Below are positions 4,773 to 13,381 of a stretch of DNA of 40,511 nucleotides, one piece after another (the first letter of the stretch is position 1; each line of letters starts with the position of its first letter). Position numbers and translations under genes: made by a program. This DNA comes from an uncultured Lutibacter sp. GTDB lineage: Bacteria; Bacteroidota; Bacteroidia; Flavobacteriales; Flavobacteriaceae. Below the pieces are notes generated by a model, which was given only the letters and a program-made list of their open reading frames with translations, made no database searches and had not been told where the DNA came from. The stretch lies in the NCBI RefSeq assembly GCF_937891065.1, contig NZ_CALAEQ010000237.1, positions 1-40,511 of the forward strand, given 5' to 3'.

Positions 4773-7034
4773 ATGGGAGATATTTACATTTTAATGCTTG
4801 TAGCGCTTGTTGTACTGGCTGTAATTGATTTAGTAGTTGGTGTTAGTAATGACGCTGTAAATTTTTTAAATTCAGCAATAGGTTCAAAAGCAGTTTCAGT
4901 TAAATGGATTTTAGTAATTGCAAGTTTAGGAGTTGCAATTGGCGCAATTACTTCAAGTGGAATGATGGAAGTTGCTAGAAAAGGAATTTTTAACCCAAGT
5001 GAATTTTATTTTAATGAAATAATGTTCATTTTTATGGCGGTAATGATTACAGATATTTTATTGTTAGACGTCTTTAACTCGTTAGGAATGCCAACTTCTA
5101 CAACTGTTTCAATTGTATTTGAACTTTTAGGCGCTGCAGTTGCAATGGCTTTAATTAAAATTTCTAATAGTGACACAGAGACAATTTCTAATTTAGGAAA
5201 ATATATAAATTCAGAAAAGGCTTTACTTATTATTACAGGTATTTTATTGTCAGTTTTTATAGCTTTTACAATAGGTGCTATAGTGCAATTTATATCGCGA
5301 TTACTGTATTCTTTTCATTTTGAAAAAAGTAAAAATTATGTAAATGCATTATTTGGAGGATTTGCAATTACAGCAATTACTTATTTTATTTTTGTGAAAG
5401 GAATGAAAGGAACTCCTTTTTATGATAGTTTTAAACATTTAATAGAAGGGAATACATTTCAAATTATTTTATATGGTTTTGTTGGTTGGACAATATTATC
5501 ACAATTAGTTATATCAATATTTAAAGCAAATATTTTAAAATTTATAATTATTATAGGAACTTTTTCATTAGCAATGGCTTTTGCAGGTAATGATTTGGTT
5601 AACTTTATAGGTGTACCAATTGCAGCTTGGAATTCTTACCAGGAATGGAGTGTTTCTGGAGTTCCTGCTAATGAATTTTCAATGGGTGTATTAGCAGAGA
5701 AAGTTCAAACGCAACCTGTCCTATTATTTATAGCTGGTTTAATAATGGTAATTACGCTTTGGTTTTCTAAAAAAGCACAATCAGTTATTGAAACGGGTAT
5801 CAACTTATCAAGACAAGGTGAAGGTCATGAAAAATTTCAATCTAATGCAGCGTCAAGAACCGTTGTTAGAGGTGCAATAATTTTTAATGAAGTAATTATA
5901 AAAGTTTTTCCACCAAAAACACTTCAGTGGATAGATTCTAAATTTCAAAAACCGGTGATAGATTTACCTAAAGATAAATCATACGAACTTCCGGCTTTTG
6001 ATATGGTTAGAGCCTCAGTAAATTTAGTTGTTGCAGGTATTTTAATTTCTGTTGGTACTTCATTAAAATTACCTTTATCTACAACCTATGTTACATTCAT
6101 GGTTGCTATGGGTACTTCTTTAGCTGATAGAGCTTGGGGAAGAGAAAGTGCAGTATTTAGAGTTGCAGGAGTGTTTAATGTTATTGGAGGTTGGTTTTTA
6201 ACTGCATTATCAGCATTTACAGTTGCTGCAGTTTTTGCTTATATTATTTATTTAGGAGAAATAGTTTCAATTGCAATTTTGTTAATTTTAGTGTTGTTTT
6301 TGTTAGGAAGAAGTACAGTGAGACACACTAGAAAAGCAAAAGAAAAGAAAGAAAAAAAGTATATTAAAAGAGCTGAATTGATTACAATTAAAGAAGTAAT
6401 AAAAGAAAGTTCAGATCACATATCAGAAGTTGTAAGACGATCAAATAAATTATTTACAAATGTAGTTGTAGATTTATCTTCTCATGATTTAAATAAACTA
6501 TCTAAAACAGGGAAACACGTTAAAAAGCTGAACATTGAAATGGATGAACTTAGAGATGAAGTTTTCTATTTTATTAAATCTTTAGATGATACAACATCAT
6601 CAATAAAAGCGAGTAGATTTTATTTATTAGTACTGGGTTATTTACAAGATGTAACTCAATCTATTGAATTTATTTCAGCAACTAGTTTTAAACACGTTAA
6701 CAACAATCATAAAAACTTAAAAAAGCCACAGATAGCTGATTTAAAAGTTATTAATGAGATGTTATCGAGCCTTTTTAATGAAATTGAAAATGATTTTAGC
6801 AAAAAGGATTTTAATAATTTATCGAAAATGGTTGAAGAAATTCAACAGCTTATTAATCATGTTTCTGATTCTATTGATAAGCAAATTGCTAGAATTAGAA
6901 CAGAAGAAACAAGCCCAAAAAACACGACGTTATATTTTGGTATTTTGTTAGAAACTAAAGATTTAGTAACAGCTTTAATGAGCTTGTTGCAATTATACCA
7001 AGAGTTTCATATACAAGAAGAAGAAACAAAATAA
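4773..7034 (+). CDS. PiT-family inorganic phosphate transporter with C-terminal PhoU-like domain
   Basis: This 753-residue inner-membrane protein probably takes up inorganic phosphate or metal-phosphate using an ion gradient. The inverted-repeat PiT signatures are visible: GVSNDAVNFLNSAIGS at 23-38 and AFAGNDLVNFIG near 269-280, plus PTSTTVS and PLSTTYVTF motifs. Hydrophobic helices fill about residues 3-511. The remaining residues, about 515-753, are soluble, charged and predicted helical, like PhoU/DUF47 coiled bundles. Classical PiT proteins are about 400-530 aa, so the extra C-terminal third is a fusion, one also seen in other Bacteroidota. The next gene is an unrelated phosphate transporter that also ends in a PhoU-like region. 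The fused domain probably gates or regulates transport (inference). A strong terminator follows, so it is likely monocistronic. Confidence 0.92.
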   Translation: MGDIYILMLVALVVLAVIDLVVGVSNDAVNFLNSAIGSKAVSVKWILVIASLGVAIGAITSSGMMEVARKGIFNPSEFYFNEIMFIFMAVMITDILLLDVFNSLGMPTSTTVSIVFELLGAAVAMALIKISNSDTETISNLGKYINSEKALLIITGILLSVFIAFTIGAIVQFISRLLYSFHFEKSKNYVNALFGGFAITAITYFIFVKGMKGTPFYDSFKHLIEGNTFQIILYGFVGWTILSQLVISIFKANILKFIIIIGTFSLAMAFAGNDLVNFIGVPIAAWNSYQEWSVSGVPANEFSMGVLAEKVQTQPVLLFIAGLIMVITLWFSKKAQSVIETGINLSRQGEGHEKFQSNAASRTVVRGAIIFNEVIIKVFPPKTLQWIDSKFQKPVIDLPKDKSYELPAFDMVRASVNLVVAGILISVGTSLKLPLSTTYVTFMVAMGTSLADRAWGRESAVFRVAGVFNVIGGWFLTALSAFTVAAVFAYIIYLGEIVSIAILLILVLFLLGRSTVRHTRKAKEKKEKKYIKRAELITIKEVIKESSDHISEVVRRSNKLFTNVVVDLSSHDLNKLSKTGKHVKKLNIEMDELRDEVFYFIKSLDDTTSSIKASRFYLLVLGYLQDVTQSIEFISATSFKHVNNNHKNLKKPQIADLKVINEMLSSLFNEIENDFSKKDFNNLSKMVEEIQQLINHVSDSIDKQIARIRTEETSPKNTTLYFGILLETKDLVTALMSLLQLYQEFHIQEEETK

Positions 7035-7053
7035 TTTTATAATTAAATTTTTT

Positions 7054-7084
7054 AAAAGCCTTCAATTTTTTTGAAGGCTTTTTT
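7054..7084 (+). terminator. Intrinsic terminator after the PiT gene
   Basis: A 12-bp stem (7054-7065 with 7071-7082, core AAAGCCTTCAA/TTGAAGGCTTT) closes a T5 loop and runs into a T tract. A TTG that would extend the next reading frame lies in the 3' arm at 7071, which argues against using that upstream start. Confidence 0.92.
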
Positions 7085-7100
7085 TATTTTAAGAAATAGA

Positions 7101-7116
7101 TGTAAGTTTACTTACA
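7101..7116. promoter_or_regulatory. Inverted repeat just upstream of the nptA-like start
   Basis: TGTAAG and CTTACA are perfect 6-bp arms around TTTA, ending 14 bp before the ATG at 7131. The element also contains TAAGTTTA, one base off the -7 consensus. It could be an operator covering the promoter or a leader hairpin. Confidence 0.35.
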
Positions 7117-7130
7117 ACAAATTAAATTTA

Positions 7131-8882
7131 ATGATTAGAAGAATTTCCTTTTTGCTTTTCTTAATACTGTTGGCAATTATACTGGTATTTAATCCAAATT
7201 TTAAAACTATTGTTGCAGGTGTTTCCATTTTACTTTTTGGTATGATTATGTTAGAAGAAGGCTTTAAAGTTTTCACCAAAGGGCCATTACAAATTATTTT
7301 AAAAAAAGCAACCAATAAGCTTTATAAAAGTATAACGGTAGGAGCTTTTGTCACAGCTTTAATACAATCTAGCTCATTGGTTTCTGTAATTACAATATCT
7401 TTTATTAGTGCAGGGTTAATAACTTTAGCAGAGGGTTTAGGATTAATATTTGGGGCAAATATTGGTACAACAGCAACAGCTTGGTTAGTTGCAGGATTTG
7501 GATTAAAAATAAACATTGCCACCTTAGCAATGCCAATGTTGGTTTTTGGTATTATTTTTTCATTTCAGAAAAAAATATATTTAAAAGGAATTGGAAGTGT
7601 ATTAGCAGGTTTAGGCTTTTTCTTTTTAGGAATACATTATATGAAACAAGGGTTTGATGTGTTTAGTAATTACATAGATTTAACCCAATATTCAGTTTCA
7701 GGATTTTTAGGAGTACTTATTTATACAGGTATAGGGATTGTTATTACAACAATACTTCAATCAAGTAGTGCAACGTTAGCTTTAATATTAACAGCTTTGG
7801 CTGCAGGTCAAATACATTATGAAAACGCTTTAGCTTTGGCAATAGGCTCAAACATTGGGACTACTATTACGGCAGTTTTAGGTGCTATTAGTTCAAATAT
7901 TTCAGGGAAAAGGTTGGCAGGAGCACATTTAATTTTTAACGTTTCCATAGGTGTTATAGCAGTTATATTTATATTTCCATTAGCTAATTTTGTAAACTAT
8001 TTATCTGAAGTAGTAGGAATTAGCTCGTCTGATTTCACACTTAAATTAGCCTTATTTCACACCATATTTAATGTTTTAGGTGTGTTAATAATGATTCCTT
8101 TTATAAGCCGTTTGGAAAAGTTCTTATTACGATTTTTTAAAGATGAAAAAGACAAAGGTATTGATGAGTCTAAATATTTAAATGAAGCCATTCTTGCATT
8201 TCCAGCAACAGTTATTTCATCATTACTAAACGAAACTAAATATTTATATAAAAACGCAATTTTTGAAATTGTTGCACATGGTTTAAATATTCATAGAGAT
8301 GATATAAACTCGAATGAAAAAATTAAAAATATTATAAAGAAATCAACAAAAAACTTACAAGTAGATGTTGAAAATTTATATTACAAAAAGGTAAAAACAA
8401 TTTATGGGGAAATCTTAAAATATGCATCAACAGCTCAAAAACAATTAAGACTTACTGAAAAACAAAACAATAAAATAACCGATATAAAAATTGCCAATCG
8501 TAAAATGGTTGAGGCTATTAAAGATGTTAAAGAACTAAATAAAAACCTAAATATAGCATTGGCGTCAGATAACAAATACTTATTAAATGAGTATAACAAT
8601 TTTAGAAAAAAGGTAATAAAAGTTATTCGCATTATTTACCTATTTAGAACTCAAGAAAACACCAAAAAGTATGCCCAGAAATTAACAGAACTTAAAAAAG
8701 AAGCAAAACAAAATAAAAAAATAAACAATAAATCGTTAGATAAATTAATTAGAGATGATTTAATTACTGTTGAAATGGCGTCTTCTTTATTTAACGATTA
8801 TGCAAATGTGAATGATATGATAAAAAAATTAATTGAAGTTGCTGAACTTTTATATGATGAAAAAGACTCATTATTTGAATAA
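7131..8882 (+). CDS. Na+/phosphate symporter (NptA/YjbB family) with PhoU-like C-terminus
   Basis: This 583-residue protein matches the type II Na/Pi cotransporter family. Two inverted repeats each carry a QSSS motif (residues 79-82 and 210-213) and a GANIGTT or GSNIGTT motif, which in this family form the Na+ and phosphate sites. About eight to ten hydrophobic helices occupy residues 3-330. Residues about 345-583 are soluble and helical, consistent with the PhoU-like domain seen in YjbB-type bacterial members. Bacterial homologues have been linked to phosphate export as well as uptake, so direction is uncertain. The ATG at 7131 is chosen over a TTG at 7071 because the latter lies in the preceding terminator and adds a non-hydrophobic extension. 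The preceding PiT transporter is unrelated in fold. A strong terminator follows. Confidence 0.92.
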   Translation: MIRRISFLLFLILLAIILVFNPNFKTIVAGVSILLFGMIMLEEGFKVFTKGPLQIILKKATNKLYKSITVGAFVTALIQSSSLVSVITISFISAGLITLAEGLGLIFGANIGTTATAWLVAGFGLKINIATLAMPMLVFGIIFSFQKKIYLKGIGSVLAGLGFFFLGIHYMKQGFDVFSNYIDLTQYSVSGFLGVLIYTGIGIVITTILQSSSATLALILTALAAGQIHYENALALAIGSNIGTTITAVLGAISSNISGKRLAGAHLIFNVSIGVIAVIFIFPLANFVNYLSEVVGISSSDFTLKLALFHTIFNVLGVLIMIPFISRLEKFLLRFFKDEKDKGIDESKYLNEAILAFPATVISSLLNETKYLYKNAIFEIVAHGLNIHRDDINSNEKIKNIIKKSTKNLQVDVENLYYKKVKTIYGEILKYASTAQKQLRLTEKQNNKITDIKIANRKMVEAIKDVKELNKNLNIALASDNKYLLNEYNNFRKKVIKVIRIIYLFRTQENTKKYAQKLTELKKEAKQNKKINNKSLDKLIRDDLITVEMASSLFNDYANVNDMIKKLIEVAELLYDEKDSLFE

Positions 8883-9000: not shown

Positions 9001-9198
9001 TTAATCAATTCCTAAACGTTCAAACAATCCTTGAATATCACTTGGGTACTTATTTTTTTGATTTATAGCACCATTTTCATAAGCAGTATTTTTTATGCTT
9101 TGTGAATTAGAGTTATTATTTTTTGAATTATTGTTTGGAGTTATTTTCATCTCTATTTCGGTACTTTGTTTTTTATTTTTTCTTTGTGCTTTTTTCAT
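9001..9198 (-). CDS. Small basic protein of unknown function
   Basis: This 65-residue frame is divergent from the LytTR regulator gene. It opens with a very basic stretch (MKKAQRKNKKQ), has an Asn/Ser-rich middle (NNNSKNNNSNSQS) and ends in a more ordered segment, PSDIQGLFERLGID. No domain is recognised. Points in favour of a real gene: an A-rich start context (AACAACAAATG), placement in a gap of more than 500 bp that is otherwise empty, and a plausible amphipathic C-terminus. Against: the low-complexity middle could be translated AT-rich DNA. There is no clear promoter, although TACTTTTTG just upstream is one base longer than a -7 box. Confidence 0.45.
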   Translation of the reverse strand: MKKAQRKNKKQSTEIEMKITPNNNSKNNNSNSQSIKNTAYENGAINQKNKYPSDIQGLFERLGID

Positions 9199-9257: not shown

Positions 9258-9268
9258 TTAGGGTTAAC
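9258..9268. repeat. Shared 11-bp motif, copy 1 (upstream of the LytTR gene)
   Basis: TTAGGGTTAAC occurs here, about 160 bp before the LytTR gene, and again at 10218-10228 in front of the small lipoprotein gene. The GTTAA core partly resembles LytTR-type recognition elements, so this may be the binding site of the adjacent regulator (inference). A further GTTAAC lies at 9204-9209. Confidence 0.4.
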
Positions 9269-9425: not shown

Positions 9426-10151
9426 ATGAGAAACTATTTTATTATTGATAACGACCCTCATACTATTCAAAGCATTAAAAATGTTTTGGAAGATTATTAT
9501 GAATTTAATTACATTGGTGCTTCTTGTGATTACAATAATGCAATGAATATTATATTAAAAGAAACTCCAGATTTGGTATTTTTTAATATTGATGCTGTTA
9601 TTGAGAATCCATTTATGTTAGCTCAGGAATTAAATTTATTTAATGATGATTTCCCTGTTTTTATAGCAATTTCTTCTTCAAAAGACAAAGTATATGAAGT
9701 TATAAAAAATGGTTTTTTCGATTTTTTATTAAACCCATTAACTGAACTAGAGATCAGAAAGTCAGTTTTAAAAGTCTTGAAAAAAATTCCTGCACAATCA
9801 AGAAAAAATATCTGTTTAAAATCTTATAAAGATTATCAATATTTAAAAACAGATGAAATTCTATTTTTAAAAGCCGATAATAATAACACTGATTTTTATA
9901 TGAGTGATGGCAATATTATTAGTGCCTTTAAAACACTTAAAACATTTGAAGATATTTTACCTAATAACTTTCATAGAATTCATAAGAGTTATATTATTAA
10001 TAAAAACTATGTTTCAAGAATTCAATATGGTAAATTCATATGTACTATTAAAAGAAATAACTATGAAGTGCCATTTACCAAAACCTATATTGGTAACATA
10101 GAAAGTATGAATAAAGACCTATCTGAATTTTCTTACCAATCCTTAAATTAA
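9426..10151 (+). CDS. LytTR-family regulator with a degenerate receiver domain
   Basis: This 241-residue protein has an N-terminal receiver-like domain (about 1-115) and a C-terminal LytTR DNA-binding domain (about 130-235; LKTDEILFLKADNNNTDFY and FHRIHKSYIINKNYV are typical). The receiver keeps its early acidic residues D8 and D10 (IIDNDP), but the phospho-acceptor position in PDLVFFNID is Asn (N54) and the conserved Lys before Pro is Asn (N103, LLNPL). Two of the core phosphorylation residues are therefore missing, so it probably works without phosphotransfer, as pseudo-receivers do. D56, two residues later, is not at the canonical position. The gene is followed by a small lipoprotein gene and a TPR kinase/regulator pair. 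It may control them through the TTAGGGTTAAC motifs (inference). No kinase abuts it directly. Confidence 0.88.
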   Translation: MRNYFIIDNDPHTIQSIKNVLEDYYEFNYIGASCDYNNAMNIILKETPDLVFFNIDAVIENPFMLAQELNLFNDDFPVFIAISSSKDKVYEVIKNGFFDFLLNPLTELEIRKSVLKVLKKIPAQSRKNICLKSYKDYQYLKTDEILFLKADNNNTDFYMSDGNIISAFKTLKTFEDILPNNFHRIHKSYIINKNYVSRIQYGKFICTIKRNNYEVPFTKTYIGNIESMNKDLSEFSYQSLN

Positions 10152-10217
10152 ATTTCCCTTTCATAAAGTAAGGTTTCACATCTGTACATGACGGTTTTAC
10201 TAAAGATGGTGTTTTAA

Positions 10218-10228
10218 TTAGGGTTAAC
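10218..10228. repeat. Shared 11-bp motif, copy 2 (upstream of the small lipoprotein gene)
   Basis: This is an identical second copy of TTAGGGTTAAC (first at 9258-9268). It lies 14 bp upstream of a near-consensus -7 box, TAATTTAG at 10243-10250, a suitable place for an activator site. Confidence 0.4.
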
Positions 10229-10373
10229 TACCTTAATTAAAGTAATTTAGTCAAAAGTTTTAATGCTTATAGCTCATTGGTTTTCTAAAAAAAACGAAAC
10301 CTTTAGCTTGAGAATTTATAAACCGAAGACAAAATTAATAACATATTTTCAATTTCCTAAAACCCTCAATATT

Positions 10374-10541
10374 ATGAAAGCAATCAAATTTATTTTCGCA
10401 TTTTCTTTATTTTTTATGGCATGTACTTCATTAACTTCTTGTACTTCTGATACTATTGCTGAAGATGAAGCTCTTTACACACAAGATCTTTTTGCTACAG
10501 GTGGAGAAGGAGCTGCTTCTGTAGATAATACAAGGGATTAA
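10374..10541 (+). CDS. Small predicted lipoprotein with a TGG motif
   Basis: This 55-residue protein begins with a basic residue and a hydrophobic stretch (KAIKFIFAFSLFFMACTSL) and has a lipobox-like LTSC with the lipidated Cys at position 23. The predicted mature part is only about 33 residues, acidic, with a Gly-rich ATGGEGAAS segment near the end. The ATG at 10374 is chosen over an in-frame ATG at 10263 because it places the signal peptide at the N-terminus. A strong terminator at 10588 ends the unit, which may start at the LytTR gene. Its position between a LytTR regulator and a sensor kinase suggests a sensed or signalling peptide, but this is inference; no family is recognised. The GG would allow double-glycine-type cleavage in principle, although the lipobox points to the general export route. 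Confidence 0.7.
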   Translation: MKAIKFIFAFSLFFMACTSLTSCTSDTIAEDEALYTQDLFATGGEGAASVDNTRD

Positions 10542-10587
10542 TAAATTATTTAAAATATAGTTAAAAAATAACTTACTATAAGTTTTT

Positions 10588-10626
10588 AAAAGCGACTGTT
10601 TAATTTTTTAAACAGCCGCTTTTTTT
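10588..10626 (+). terminator. Intrinsic terminator after the small lipoprotein gene
   Basis: The arms 10588-10603 and 10608-10623 pair with one mismatch (core GCGACTGTTTAA with TTAAACAGCCGC) and run into a T tract. It separates the lipoprotein unit from the kinase gene, whose -7 box starts three bases further on. Confidence 0.9.
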
Positions 10627-10628
10627 AG

Positions 10629-10636
10629 TAGCTTTG
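10629..10636 (+). promoter_or_regulatory. -7 promoter box of the TPR kinase gene
   Basis: TAGCTTTG is an exact TAnnTTTG match 17 bp before the TTG start at 10654. The -33 region would fall inside the preceding terminator hairpin and has no TTG. If the box is used, the leader is only about 10 nt. Confidence 0.45.
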
Positions 10637-10653
10637 TTTTCAAACTTCAATTA

Positions 10654-12711
10654 TTGAACACACTATTTAAATACAACCTGTTTTCTGGCATATTATATAT
10701 ATGCATACTATTTACGTTCATTTTTTGTAATAATAAGCGGCCTATTGATGATAAGAAAATAGTTGGAGAAATTGATAGTGTTGACAGTTGGATTCAACAA
10801 TCAAAAAATAGCAAATTTGATCTAAATGAAAGAACGAATGCTTTACAAAAAGCATTTAATTTTTCAAATGGAGTTTTATCAGATTCTATGAAAATTAATT
10901 ACTATTCAAAAATTGCTTATGAAGCAGACAATTTAAATAGTGAGCAATTATTTAAAGAAGTAAATTTTAAAGCATTTTCTTTAGCTACAAAACTTAGTGA
11001 TACCTTTAAAATTGGAGATGCACATTGGAATTATGCTTCATTTTACAATAAAAAAGAAATTATAGATAGTGCATATTATCATTATCATGAAGCTTATAAA
11101 AATTTCAAACTAGTAAAACATGAATATTTTACAGCAAAAATGTTGTACAATATGGGTTTTCTTCAAGGTCGTTTAAAAGATTATACAGGCAGCGAGGTTT
11201 TAATGTTTGAAGCCCTTACCATTTTTAAAAAATTAAACAAAAATTTAAGTATTTACCATTGTTATAATTATTTAGGGCTGATATATATGGAGTTAGAGGA
11301 ATTTGACAAAGCGATATATTACCATAATAAAGCGCTCGAGTATCTCAAAAAAGTTGATGATAAAGGGATTTTTAAAGAGTGGAGCTTAAATAATTTAGGG
11401 TTGGTATATCAAAATCTTAAAAAATATGAAGAAGCTATTTATAGTTTTGAAAAAGCACTACAAAATAGTAATTTAAAAGAGCGTAATTTAGATTTTTATG
11501 CGATATTGATTGATAATGTAGCTTACACTAAATTTTTAGATGGAGATACCACAAATGTTGTTGAAGGATTTAATAAATCATTAAAAATTAGAGATAGCAC
11601 AAAATATATTACAGGATTAACCATTGTTAAACGACATTTAGCAGAATTTTACGCTACAAAATTAGACACTTTTAAAGCTGTTCAATTTGCAAATGAGGCT
11701 TTTGGTTTAGCAGATCAAGTTGACAATAATAGAGATAAGTTAGAATCACTATTACTACTTTCAAAAGTAGATACTAAAAATTCGAGTAAATATTTAGCTA
11801 ATTATGTTCATTTAAGTGATAGTCTTCAAATTGAAGAACGTAAAATTAGAAATAAATTTACCAGAATTCGTTTTGAAACAGATGAATATATTGATAAAAC
11901 CGAGGAGCTTTCACAACAAAAAGTATTTATTTCTATTGGAGCCATTATTACATTATTATTTCTTTCGTTGGCATATTTTTTGAGGGTTCAAAGATCTAAA
12001 AATAAGGAATTGATATTTGAAAGAGAACAACAAAAATCGAATGAAGAAATTTTCTCATTAATGCTAAAACAGCAATCAAAATTAGAAGAGGGACGTTTAA
12101 AAGAGCGACATAGAATTTCAGAAGATTTGCATGATGGGGTTTTAGGGAAAATTTTCGGAACCAGAATAGGGTTAGGTTTTTTAAGCATAAAAGGAGATGA
12201 AAATGACACTAAAAAACATCAATTTTTTATCGATGAACTTCAAAATATTGAAAAAGAAATTAGGTCAATTTCACATGAATTAAAAAGTGAGGTTTTATCT
12301 TCAAAAGTAGATTTCTTTAAAATAATAGAGAATTTAATAGAACAAAAAAGTACCTTAGGAAACTTTGAATATCATATGATTGCTGATGAAGAAATTTACT
12401 GGGATAAAATTAATGATGAAATAAAAATTAATTTTTATAGAATTATACAAGAAGCATTGCAAAACATTATAAAATATGCAAACGCTACCAAAGTGAATCT
12501 TAAATTTGAATTAGAAAACAATATTCTTAAATTAATTATTAATGATAACGGAATAGGGTTTAATGCATTAGAAAAAAGAAGGGGAATTGGATTAAAAAAT
12601 ATGCAGTCAAGAACAAATAAATTGAATGGTATTTTTGAAGTTAGTTCTAAAATTAATAGCGGAACCTCTATATTTGTGTCGTGTTCAATACAAAACAAAA
12701 ACAATGAGTAA
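10654..12711 (+). CDS. TPR-containing sensor histidine kinase (HisKA_3 type)
   Basis: The predicted 685-residue membrane sensor has an N-terminal hydrophobic signal or anchor (about 9-25), a helical TPR array (about 80-390, with repeats such as YNYLGLIYMELEEFDKAIYY and NNLGLVYQNLKKYEEAIYSF), a transmembrane helix (about 424-442), a short coiled coil, a HisKA_3 dimerisation domain with phospho-His H493 (ISEDLHDGV) and a HATPase domain (NDNGIGF and GIGLKNM boxes). The TPR part should be periplasmic, so it may bind a protein or peptide there. No ATG is available near the start. TTG at 10654 gives a good hydrophobic N-terminus and lies just after a -7 box. The last 8 bp overlap the response regulator gene, so the two are translationally coupled and surely partners. 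The small lipoprotein upstream is a possible input (inference). Confidence 0.9.
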   Translation: MNTLFKYNLFSGILYICILFTFIFCNNKRPIDDKKIVGEIDSVDSWIQQSKNSKFDLNERTNALQKAFNFSNGVLSDSMKINYYSKIAYEADNLNSEQLFKEVNFKAFSLATKLSDTFKIGDAHWNYASFYNKKEIIDSAYYHYHEAYKNFKLVKHEYFTAKMLYNMGFLQGRLKDYTGSEVLMFEALTIFKKLNKNLSIYHCYNYLGLIYMELEEFDKAIYYHNKALEYLKKVDDKGIFKEWSLNNLGLVYQNLKKYEEAIYSFEKALQNSNLKERNLDFYAILIDNVAYTKFLDGDTTNVVEGFNKSLKIRDSTKYITGLTIVKRHLAEFYATKLDTFKAVQFANEAFGLADQVDNNRDKLESLLLLSKVDTKNSSKYLANYVHLSDSLQIEERKIRNKFTRIRFETDEYIDKTEELSQQKVFISIGAIITLLFLSLAYFLRVQRSKNKELIFEREQQKSNEEIFSLMLKQQSKLEEGRLKERHRISEDLHDGVLGKIFGTRIGLGFLSIKGDENDTKKHQFFIDELQNIEKEIRSISHELKSEVLSSKVDFFKIIENLIEQKSTLGNFEYHMIADEEIYWDKINDEIKINFYRIIQEALQNIIKYANATKVNLKFELENNILKLIINDNGIGFNALEKRRGIGLKNMQSRTNKLNGIFEVSSKINSGTSIFVSCSIQNKNNE

Positions 12712-13381
12712 AATATATAATGTACTAATAGTTGATGATCATCCAATAATAGCAGACGCTTATAAAAGTGCTTTTGATTTTATTAGTTCAGAAAATAATA
12801 AGCTAAAATTTAACATTTCAATTGTTCATAATTCTGATGATGCTATTAATAAAATTACTGAAGCTTCTAAAAAAAATGGTATTGATATTGTCTTTTTGGA
12901 TATTTCAATACCACCTTCAACTGACGGGAAAATATTATCAGGTGAAGATATAGGAGTTACAATTAGAAAGTTACTTCCTAAATGTAAAATTATTGTAGCT
13001 ACTACCTTTAATGATAATTATAGAATTCAAGTAATTCTTAAAAATGTGAATCCAGAAGGGTTTTTAATTAAAAACGATGTTAATAAAGACGAGTTAGTAA
13101 CTTCAATAAAAATGGTTCTAGATAACTCACCTTATTATAGTAAATCTGTATTAGAATTATTTAGAAAACAAGCATCTATAGATTATAGATTGGATAAAAT
13201 TGATCGACAATTATTATATGAAATGTCAATTGGAACAAAAATGAAAGAGCTTCCTAATATAATTCCATTGTCAATGACTGGTATAGAAAAAAGAAAAAAG
13301 AATCTTAAAGTTCTTTTTGATGTTGATGATAATGATGACAGATCATTAGTATTAAAAGCAAAAGAAAAAGGGTTTATATAA
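12704..13381 (+). CDS. Response regulator with receiver and C-terminal HTH-like domain
   Basis: This 225-residue partner of the upstream kinase has a complete receiver: D11/D12 (LIVDDHP), phospho-acceptor D66 (IVFLDISIP), T100/T101 and K123 (FLIKNDV). An insertion of about ten residues (PSTDGKILSGED) follows the phosphorylation loop. The C-terminal region (about 155-225; DRQLLYEMSIGTKMKELPNI) is consistent with a divergent LuxR/NarL-type helix-turn-helix, though the recognition helix is not typical. The ATG at 12704 overlaps the kinase stop by 8 bp; a longer frame from 12626 has no merit because it runs inside the kinase gene. The terminator that ends the operon overlaps the last codons. Target genes are not visible; the neighbouring lipoprotein gene is one candidate. 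Confidence 0.88.
   Translation: MSKIYNVLIVDDHPIIADAYKSAFDFISSENNKLKFNISIVHNSDDAINKITEASKKNGIDIVFLDISIPPSTDGKILSGEDIGVTIRKLLPKCKIIVATTFNDNYRIQVILKNVNPEGFLIKNDVNKDELVTSIKMVLDNSPYYSKSVLELFRKQASIDYRLDKIDRQLLYEMSIGTKMKELPNIIPLSMTGIEKRKKNLKVLFDVDDNDDRSLVLKAKEKGFI

Follow-up and report, generated by a model that had tools for sequence, protein, structure and literature searches.

A candidate peptide-signalling two-component module in Flavobacteriaceae: a TPR sensor kinase, a linked small exported protein and a LytTR regulator

Within 40,511 nt of an uncultured Lutibacter sp. of the Flavobacteriaceae (contig NZ_CALAEQ010000237.1 of assembly GCF_937891065.1; hereafter the window), four adjacent genes on the + strand encode a LytTR-type regulator, a small lipoprotein, a sensor histidine kinase with tetratricopeptide repeats (TPR) and a response regulator. 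It is likely that they constitute a peptide-signalling two-component module, in which the small protein is the ligand of the TPR kinase, or the precursor of that ligand, and the LytTR regulator controls its gene. This ligand-or-precursor reading is the simplest account because the small gene is coupled to the kinase, its tandem repeats in a sister genus are under protein-level selection, the peptides diverge between species, and the small protein covaries with the sensor. The four genes had been placed at positions 9426-13381 by the initial annotation; an open reading frame (ORF) check of the window confirmed them there (Table 1), and their order is kept in 21 of 38 genomes of the genus, the carriers of the LytTR ortholog.

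The coupling of the small gene to the kinase was assessed in genus loci, 51 wider family regions and 80 named loci (Lutibacter, Tenacibaculum, Polaribacter, Kordia, Psychroserpens and others). These gave 111 distinct kinase-regulator pairs, of which 110 (24 genus, 39 family and 47 named) reached far enough upstream to be scored. In 101/110 pairs the kinase is preceded by a small secreted ORF, compared with 33/680 other genes of the same loci and with 1/31 regulators that lack a kinase; a lipobox was recognised by pattern in 89 upstream ORFs of kinase pairs and in 2 of the background genes. The nine misses comprise five kinases of one clade, L072 (small gene 8 kb away), L080 (frameshifted), and L089 and L155, both of which have none. 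Every true small gene of the genus was found to accompany a kinase, and kinases with unrelated neighbours were not the rule in the 110 pairs, so that the link which the initial annotation drew from position alone has gained in strength.

Within the 38 genomes of the genus, a LytTR match at E ≤ 1e-30 was found in 24 and an ortholog (at least 64% identity) in 21. The response regulator was present at 61% identity or more in 20 genomes, the sole difference from the LytTR set being G116, where the contig breaks off within the kinase gene. The small gene adjoins the LytTR gene in all 21 ortholog-bearing genomes (20 intact, one the frameshifted L080), and the kinase follows directly in these genomes except in G102 (L072), where an insertion of about 8 kb comes first. 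Five further genomes (G112, G113, G117, G125 and G129; L083-L087) carry a diverged set consisting of a LytTR protein of 38-40% identity, a small lipoprotein and a kinase, with the regulator found in all but G117. Among 29 genus loci fetched by the small protein (L033-L061), 17 have the LytTR and small genes in order, and in 16 of these the fetched 1.5 kb includes the kinase; the remaining 12 hold longer ORFs whose resemblance is limited to the N-terminus. L089 is a kinase-regulator pair of the genus without the small gene.

Beyond the genus, the regulator occurs in 66/100 family genomes (E ≤ 1e-10), and in a phylum-wide draw (regulator alignment E ≤ 1e-35) 38/41 genomes of the same family and 0/354 others were among the matches listed. 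A LytTR gene lies within 1 kb of 48/110 kinases and is absent from that distance in 62/110. The proposal of a single four-gene module needs correction on this point. Two recurrent neighbourhoods were also observed. Kinase-less relatives of the regulator at L102, L108, L109, L111, L112 and L138 are followed by a shared run of ORFs (134-143 residues, 157-162 residues and, truncated at the locus end, 344 residues or more), and at many of L114-L141, by a second kinase clade, recurring ORFs downstream of the regulator (about 165 residues on the - strand, 119-158 on the + strand) may be targets or partners.

The repeat evidence comes from g100, a large sister genus in the same family that is probably Flavobacterium. 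Its 110 loci contain the kinase in 107 cases, LytTR together with the kinase in 96 and a small secreted ORF in 103 (101 distinct). These proteins lack the lipobox cysteine in 99/101 cases, and 61 of the 101 contain a repeated 9-mer, compared with 0.02 in shuffles; at least three repeat units are present in 41. Median identity between units is 0.94 within a protein and 0.20 between proteins of different loci. Examples are six copies of IIGGNATGGNMKLD in L322, five of VSGSGAARSTKLD in L246 and about six of FAIGGRSSQGE in L325. A repeat is also contained in 38 of 1625 other small ORFs of the loci, some of which are probably alternative frames of the same DNA. The repeat codons show 537 silent and 293 replacement differences, a ratio of nonsynonymous to synonymous divergence (pN/pS) of 0.17, and the silent share of 0.65 exceeds the 0.34 of a neutral simulation passed through the identical filter; the computation shows that the g100 repeats are under protein-level selection. 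In a separate observation, L340-L346 of g100 hold doubled arrays in the order LytTR, regulator, kinase, repeat-peptide gene, second kinase and second regulator, and the first kinase of L340-L344 is preceded by an ORF for a secreted protein of about 115-127 residues.

The distance between mature small proteins was then compared with the distance between TPR domains, kinase-domain distance being held constant and significance being taken from label permutation, which ignores tree structure. A partial correlation was found in g100 (r 0.34, p 0.001, n 72) and in the other loci (r 0.50, p 0.002, n 100), the latter owing much to a clade of non-lipid small proteins. The signal peptide gave no correlation with the TPR domain given the kinase (r -0.001 in g100, -0.017 in the others). 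These covariation results are supportive and not proof. Together with the tandem, near-identical g100 peptides they favour the earlier proposal that the lipoprotein may be the TPR ligand.

The small protein of the window consists of MKAIKFIFAFSLFFMACTSLTSC and a tail ending ATGGEGAASVDNTRD, with a signal peptide and, as judged by eye, the lipobox LTSC with Cys23; searches of Pfam and of PHROGs gave no match. The main set of small proteins outside g100 comprises 102 proteins, of which 88 have a lipobox and 14 do not by hand count, all 14 belonging to a single clade of the kinase tree. The lipobox pattern fits 91, as it miscounts L115, L118, L120, L209, L212 and L215 and misses L097, L113 and L180. 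Those 91 proteins have a median mature length of 34 residues and a median net charge of -7; 66 of them contain TG[GDES] and 38 have a basic-acidic C-terminus, where shuffles give 13.5 and 6.0. The description of the small protein as a lipoprotein holds for the window, and the lipid anchor is dispensable elsewhere, in the 14 proteins of the main set and in nearly all of those from g100. Within the genus the small protein has a pN/pS of 0.62 (15 loci). The lipoprotein export signal (LES), a surface-export motif after the lipid cysteine, has been described as C-X-K-(D/E)2 in C. canimorsus or as an SDDFE-type motif in F. johnsoniae (PMC5080379); the window sequence CTSDTIAEDE is acidic and by eye differs from that consensus. 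At L248, three tandem near-identical lipoprotein genes (..TTDSYDAD...TDPIIIPKKD) stand ahead of the kinase.

The kinase matches TPR_12 (3.7e-23) and HATPase_c (7e-09) in Pfam, with HisKA_3 at 23.3 bits, just below the cut-off of 24. Its AlphaFold model (mean predicted local distance difference test, pLDDT, 85; predicted template modelling score, pTM, 0.56) has a helix at residues 3-25, TPR-type helix pairs at 43-372, a long helix at 377-508 and the ATPase domain, and on our reading of the flanking membrane-type helices the TPR part would be extracytoplasmic, in the periplasm. H493 is invariant in 41 kinases. Three asparagines, Asn205, Asn247 and Asn288, recur at a spacing of some 41 residues, each in the first helix of one of three consecutive TPR units. 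Of 131 kinases, 121, 125 and 124 retain them, respectively, and all three rank in the top six of 340 TPR positions by conservation; by TPR anatomy they would line the groove. Asparagine ladders holding a peptide backbone are known from O-GlcNAc transferase. A ladder extending over five helices was rejected, since positions 126 and 166 are not conserved (Asn in 56 and 68 of 131). Foldseek placed LGN complexes first for the kinase model, followed by Rap proteins, several of them with bound peptide, and matched the ATPase domain to that of VraS (4gt8; TM-score 0.84 by target length).

The response regulator starts within the last codons of the kinase gene, so the coupling of the two by an 8-bp overlap (12704-12711) was borne out. 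Its receiver residues D12, D66, T100 and K123 are invariant among 24 sequences, and its best Foldseek matches are LiaR, spr1814 and RcsB. The pair has the features of a two-component system: HATPase_c, HisKA_3 with its histidine (the score being just under the cut-off), the receiver aspartate and a NarL-type fold.

The LytTR gene product matches Pfam LytTR (3.9e-15; 56.3 bits against a cut-off of 22.6) and Response_reg (3e-07). With Asn54 at the phospho-acceptor position and Asn103 in place of the usual lysine, the protein of the window reads as a pseudo-receiver, as the initial annotation had suggested in stating that it cannot be phosphorylated in the normal way. This is a lineage-specific trait and not a property of the module, because many LytTR neighbours have Asp or another residue at the acceptor position: in 55 distinct neighbours it is Asn in 32, Asp in 17 and another residue in 6, and in 21 sequences of the genus Asn in 16 and Asp in 5.

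Direct repeats of 21-bp period were scored at lag 21 against shuffled sequence. In the genus, the gap between the LytTR gene and the small gene scored 197 against 9.6 in shuffles (maximum 32 of 100 shuffles; 14/19 loci). The peak is absent from the genus loci both upstream of the LytTR gene and between small gene and kinase, and autoregulation by LytTR was rejected on account of the former. For all 47 loci with an adjacent LytTR gene the score upstream of the small gene was 250 against 16.9 expected (maximum 41 of 60 shuffles), and repeats are present in 27/47 against 6.5 by chance. The 30 LytTR loci outside the genus ortholog set, four of which are genus paralogs, gave 49 against 6.1 (maximum 15), and 91 loci of g100 gave 107 against 20.6 (maximum 34); at 54 loci without LytTR the score was at chance, 20 against 21.4. 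Known LytTR sites consist of 9-bp direct repeats with, in most cases, 12 bp between them (PMC6193735), which amounts to the 21-bp geometry. The exact repeat pattern of the window occurs once in its own genome, that occurrence being the site from which the pattern was derived. A wider LytTR regulon in that genome was rejected: a degenerate repeat with up to 3 mismatches gave 111+93 hits against 62+57 for a reversed control, an excess that was not resolved into targets. The suggestion that LytTR sets the level of the lipoprotein is supported by repeats that track an adjacent LytTR gene; LytTR may thus control the small-protein gene, presumably by binding them.

A hairpin followed by a T-run was found after the small gene in 79/95 gaps, compared with 5.8 expected from simple shuffles (gaps of 30-420 bp, six outside that length being dropped). 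The gap of the window has an RNA fold z of -4.08; a stricter terminator scan of the window did not list the hairpin at 10588-10626. Because such a hairpin follows the small gene, the four genes are probably not one plain operon, and, taken with the LytTR-linked repeats, the small gene probably has a separate transcript with its own start and end.

On these grounds the following sequence of events may be proposed. LytTR would bind the repeats just 3' of its own gene and so set transcription of a short, separately terminated mRNA encoding a Sec-exported small protein. In the genus of the window this would be a lipoprotein with one acidic unit (..ATGGEGAASVDNTRD), and in g100 a soluble protein, often with several near-identical units. 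Either this protein itself after export, or peptides released from it by cleavage, would bind in extended form in the asparagine-lined groove of the extracytoplasmic TPR superhelix, upon which the kinase would phosphorylate its NarL-type partner and the partner would control target genes. Ligand binding, processing, the direction of the response and the choice between cell-cell and own-envelope sensing are steps that we infer. The signal may pass between cells or stay with the cell that makes it: Sec export by itself takes the protein to the periplasm, and the gene set shows no exporter. It is tentatively conceivable, with somewhat less than an even chance, that this is a family-wide pheromone system of the Flavobacteriaceae, with species-specific peptides from (often multi-copy) precursors, TPR kinases reading them at the surface or in the periplasm as an extracytoplasmic counterpart of the RRNPPA receptors, and LytTR controlling ligand supply.

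Several observations weigh against the peptide-ligand interpretation. TPR repeats are generic, and LGN and Rap would turn up in Foldseek lists for many TPR arrays. The small gene is missing from L089, L155 and five kinases that form a clade other than the non-lipid one. The peptide repeats are nearly restricted to g100: elsewhere they occur in 1/103 proteins (L125, with three TGGGVDERD units) and in none from the genus of the window. Most g100 loci were chosen by similarity to one small protein; of 20 loci chosen by the regulator (L230-L249), the small ORF is present in 19 and contains repeats in seven of those. Ten g100 loci without an adjacent LytTR gene still show lag 21 (25 against 3.2, maximum 14; 5/10); nine of them were re-fetched, seven proving to be doubled arrays headed by LytTR and one starting at a contig end, and in the last of the nine, L348, LytTR was not found within 18 kb. 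Lags 10-12 are raised in g100 as well (73-78 against 22).

The covariation is subject to similar reservations. In g100 the mature part is also tied weakly to the kinase domain given the TPR domain (0.124, p 0.011). For lipoproteins alone the specificity is weak, because the link to the TPR domain (0.20, p 0.002) is similar to that with the kinase given the TPR domain (0.177, p 0.002). Moreover, the TPR domain diverges faster than the kinase domain (p-distance 0.556 against 0.369) and would therefore track recent divergence better, which could inflate the partial correlation. The net charges of small protein and TPR domain gave a raw Spearman coefficient of -0.44, reduced to r -0.24 (p 0.018) by phylogenetically independent contrasts, with p 0.11 per length and p 0.069 for lipoproteins alone. 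When several cuts of the TPR part were tried, the contrasts gave r -0.29 (p 0.004) for all helices, -0.26 (p 0.0095) for inner and -0.19 (p 0.052) for outer ones. Charge complementarity was rejected as evidence, being weak after contrasts and not significant per length; it is a hint at most.

An unlikely alternative makes the small protein an envelope sentinel, which reports lipoprotein-trafficking or outer-membrane stress by meeting the TPR domain only when mislocalised, so that the cell senses its own envelope and not its neighbours. NlpE and RcsF are models for such behaviour on mislocalisation, and LiaR, RcsB and VraS, which the regulator and kinase core resemble, belong to envelope-stress systems. 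The lipobox of most small proteins outside g100 (88/102) agrees with this explanation; the loss of the lipid anchor in the kinase clade of 14 loci and in 99/101 g100 proteins, kinase and regulator being kept, does not, and tandem near-identical peptides are not needed for such a role. Still less probable is that the small protein is output and not input, i.e. an antimicrobial, surface or matrix peptide under neighbouring regulators, with the kinase sensing another cue. The separate terminated transcription unit with LytTR-type repeats would suit such an effector, and bacteriocin genes are known targets of two LytTR regulators, HdrR and BrsR (PMC6193735). Yet the small gene is coupled to the kinase and not to the regulator (101/110 against 1/31), its mature product covaries with the sensor domain, and the window's set holds no added immunity or export gene. 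A purely positional association, in which the small ORF is conserved beside the other genes by chance or hitchhiking and has no functional tie to them, would fit the weak purifying selection on the genus lipoprotein and is very improbable in view of the background counts (33/680 and 1/31) and of the pN/pS of the g100 repeats.

The peptide-signalling reading recalls the RRNPPA receptors of Firmicutes (Rap, NprR, PlcR and AimR), in which a TPR superhelix receptor likewise stands beside a small Sec-exported propeptide. Several RRNPPA subfamilies have propeptides with multiple copies of the mature peptide, export being by signal peptidase I or II routes (SPI or SPII), and the receptors are cytoplasmic; the terms Bacteroid and Gram-negative are absent from the main text of the paper that describes them (PMC9765709). 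In the loci studied here a candidate exported precursor is likewise found beside the candidate receptor, multi-copy in g100 and L125 and not in the window. Unlike the cytoplasmic RRNPPA receptors with their helix-turn-helix or Rap effector part, the TPR domain of the module is read as the extracytoplasmic sensor of a histidine kinase, and the host is a member of the Flavobacteriaceae.

In the Agr and Com systems a LytTR regulator stands near a small exported product. The module shares with the LytTR family the domain itself and repeats about 21 bp apart near the promoter of the presumed target, and AgrA binds direct repeats (PMC4227749). In contrast to AgrA- and ComE-type systems, its LytTR protein has no adjacent kinase of its own and often no phospho-acceptor, and the repeats sit at the neighbouring gene instead of upstream of LytTR. 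LytTR regulatory systems (LRS) have a membrane inhibitor and, upstream of the LytTR operon, autoregulatory repeats; the window's set contains no such membrane protein, and the genus loci show no lag-21 peak upstream of LytTR. FimS of Porphyromonas gingivalis, the partner of FimR, is a periplasmic TPR sensor kinase for which a polypeptide bound by the TPR motifs has been suggested as signal (PMC11053733). The module kinase appears to share this architecture, given its presumed topology, but is not a member of that family (NCBIfam NF053520, 45.2 bits against 600 needed). LiaS, VraS, UhpB and NarX/NarQ have the kinase core in common with it, the matches starting at about residue 481 and leaving the TPR sensor outside. 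As regards ribosomally synthesised and post-translationally modified peptides (RiPP), no enzyme-sized gene lies inside the window's set; wider neighbourhoods were not searched for a maturation enzyme. The parts are of known kinds. Aimed searches of open-licence PubMed Central (PMC) papers did not find a description of the module, and the combination of an extracytoplasmic TPR kinase, a linked and often multi-copy peptide precursor and LytTR control appears to be undescribed in the papers searched.

The features of the set are collected in Table 1. TAnnTTTG is the Bacteroidetes -7 promoter consensus.

Table 1. Genes and candidate regulatory elements of the module in the window
Feature	Position	Strand	Evidence
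LytTR-type transcription regulator, degenerate receiver (Asp→Asn54, Lys→Asn103)	9426..10151	+	Pfam LytTR/Response_reg; residue counts; ortholog in 21/38 genus genomes
Direct repeat GGTTTCAC-N13-GGTTTTAC, period 21, candidate LytTR binding site for small gene	10172..10200	+	Lag-21 enrichment in LytTR loci
TAATTTAG, candidate -7 element of small gene	10243..10250	+	TAnnTT block in genus alignment; one mismatch to TAnnTTTG
55-residue lipoprotein, mature part about 33 residues (CTSDTIAEDEALYTQDLFATGGEGAASVDNTRD), proposed ligand or ligand precursor	10374..10541	+	Signal peptide, lipobox
Hairpin and T-run in the gap ahead of the kinase gene, candidate intrinsic terminator	10588..10626	+	Homologous gaps; RNA fold
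TAGCTTTG, candidate -7 element for kinase gene	10629..10636	+	Fits TAnnTTTG
Sensor histidine kinase (TTG start): TPR superhelix (residues 43-372, presumed extracytoplasmic) between two membrane helices, then HisKA_3/HATPase_c	10654..12711	+	Pfam, AlphaFold, Foldseek
NarL/LuxR-type response regulator, 8-bp overlap with kinase	12704..13381	+	Pfam, alignment, Foldseek

Other features of the window include TTAGGGTTAAC, spotted by eye upstream of both the LytTR gene (9258-9268) and the small gene (10218-10228), adjacent phosphate carriers of the PHO4 and Na/Pi-cotransporter types upstream of the module (4773-8882), and a basic ORF of 65 residues without Pfam family (9001-9198, - strand).

If the peptide-signalling reading is true, it would supply a TPR sensor kinase with a candidate ligand, the signal of FimS, of similar architecture, being stated as unknown by its authors (PMC11053733). 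It would also mean that the Flavobacteriaceae use peptide signalling, with signals that could be deduced from genome sequence and made synthetically, and that the family may hold a large natural collection of species-specific ligand-receptor pairs.

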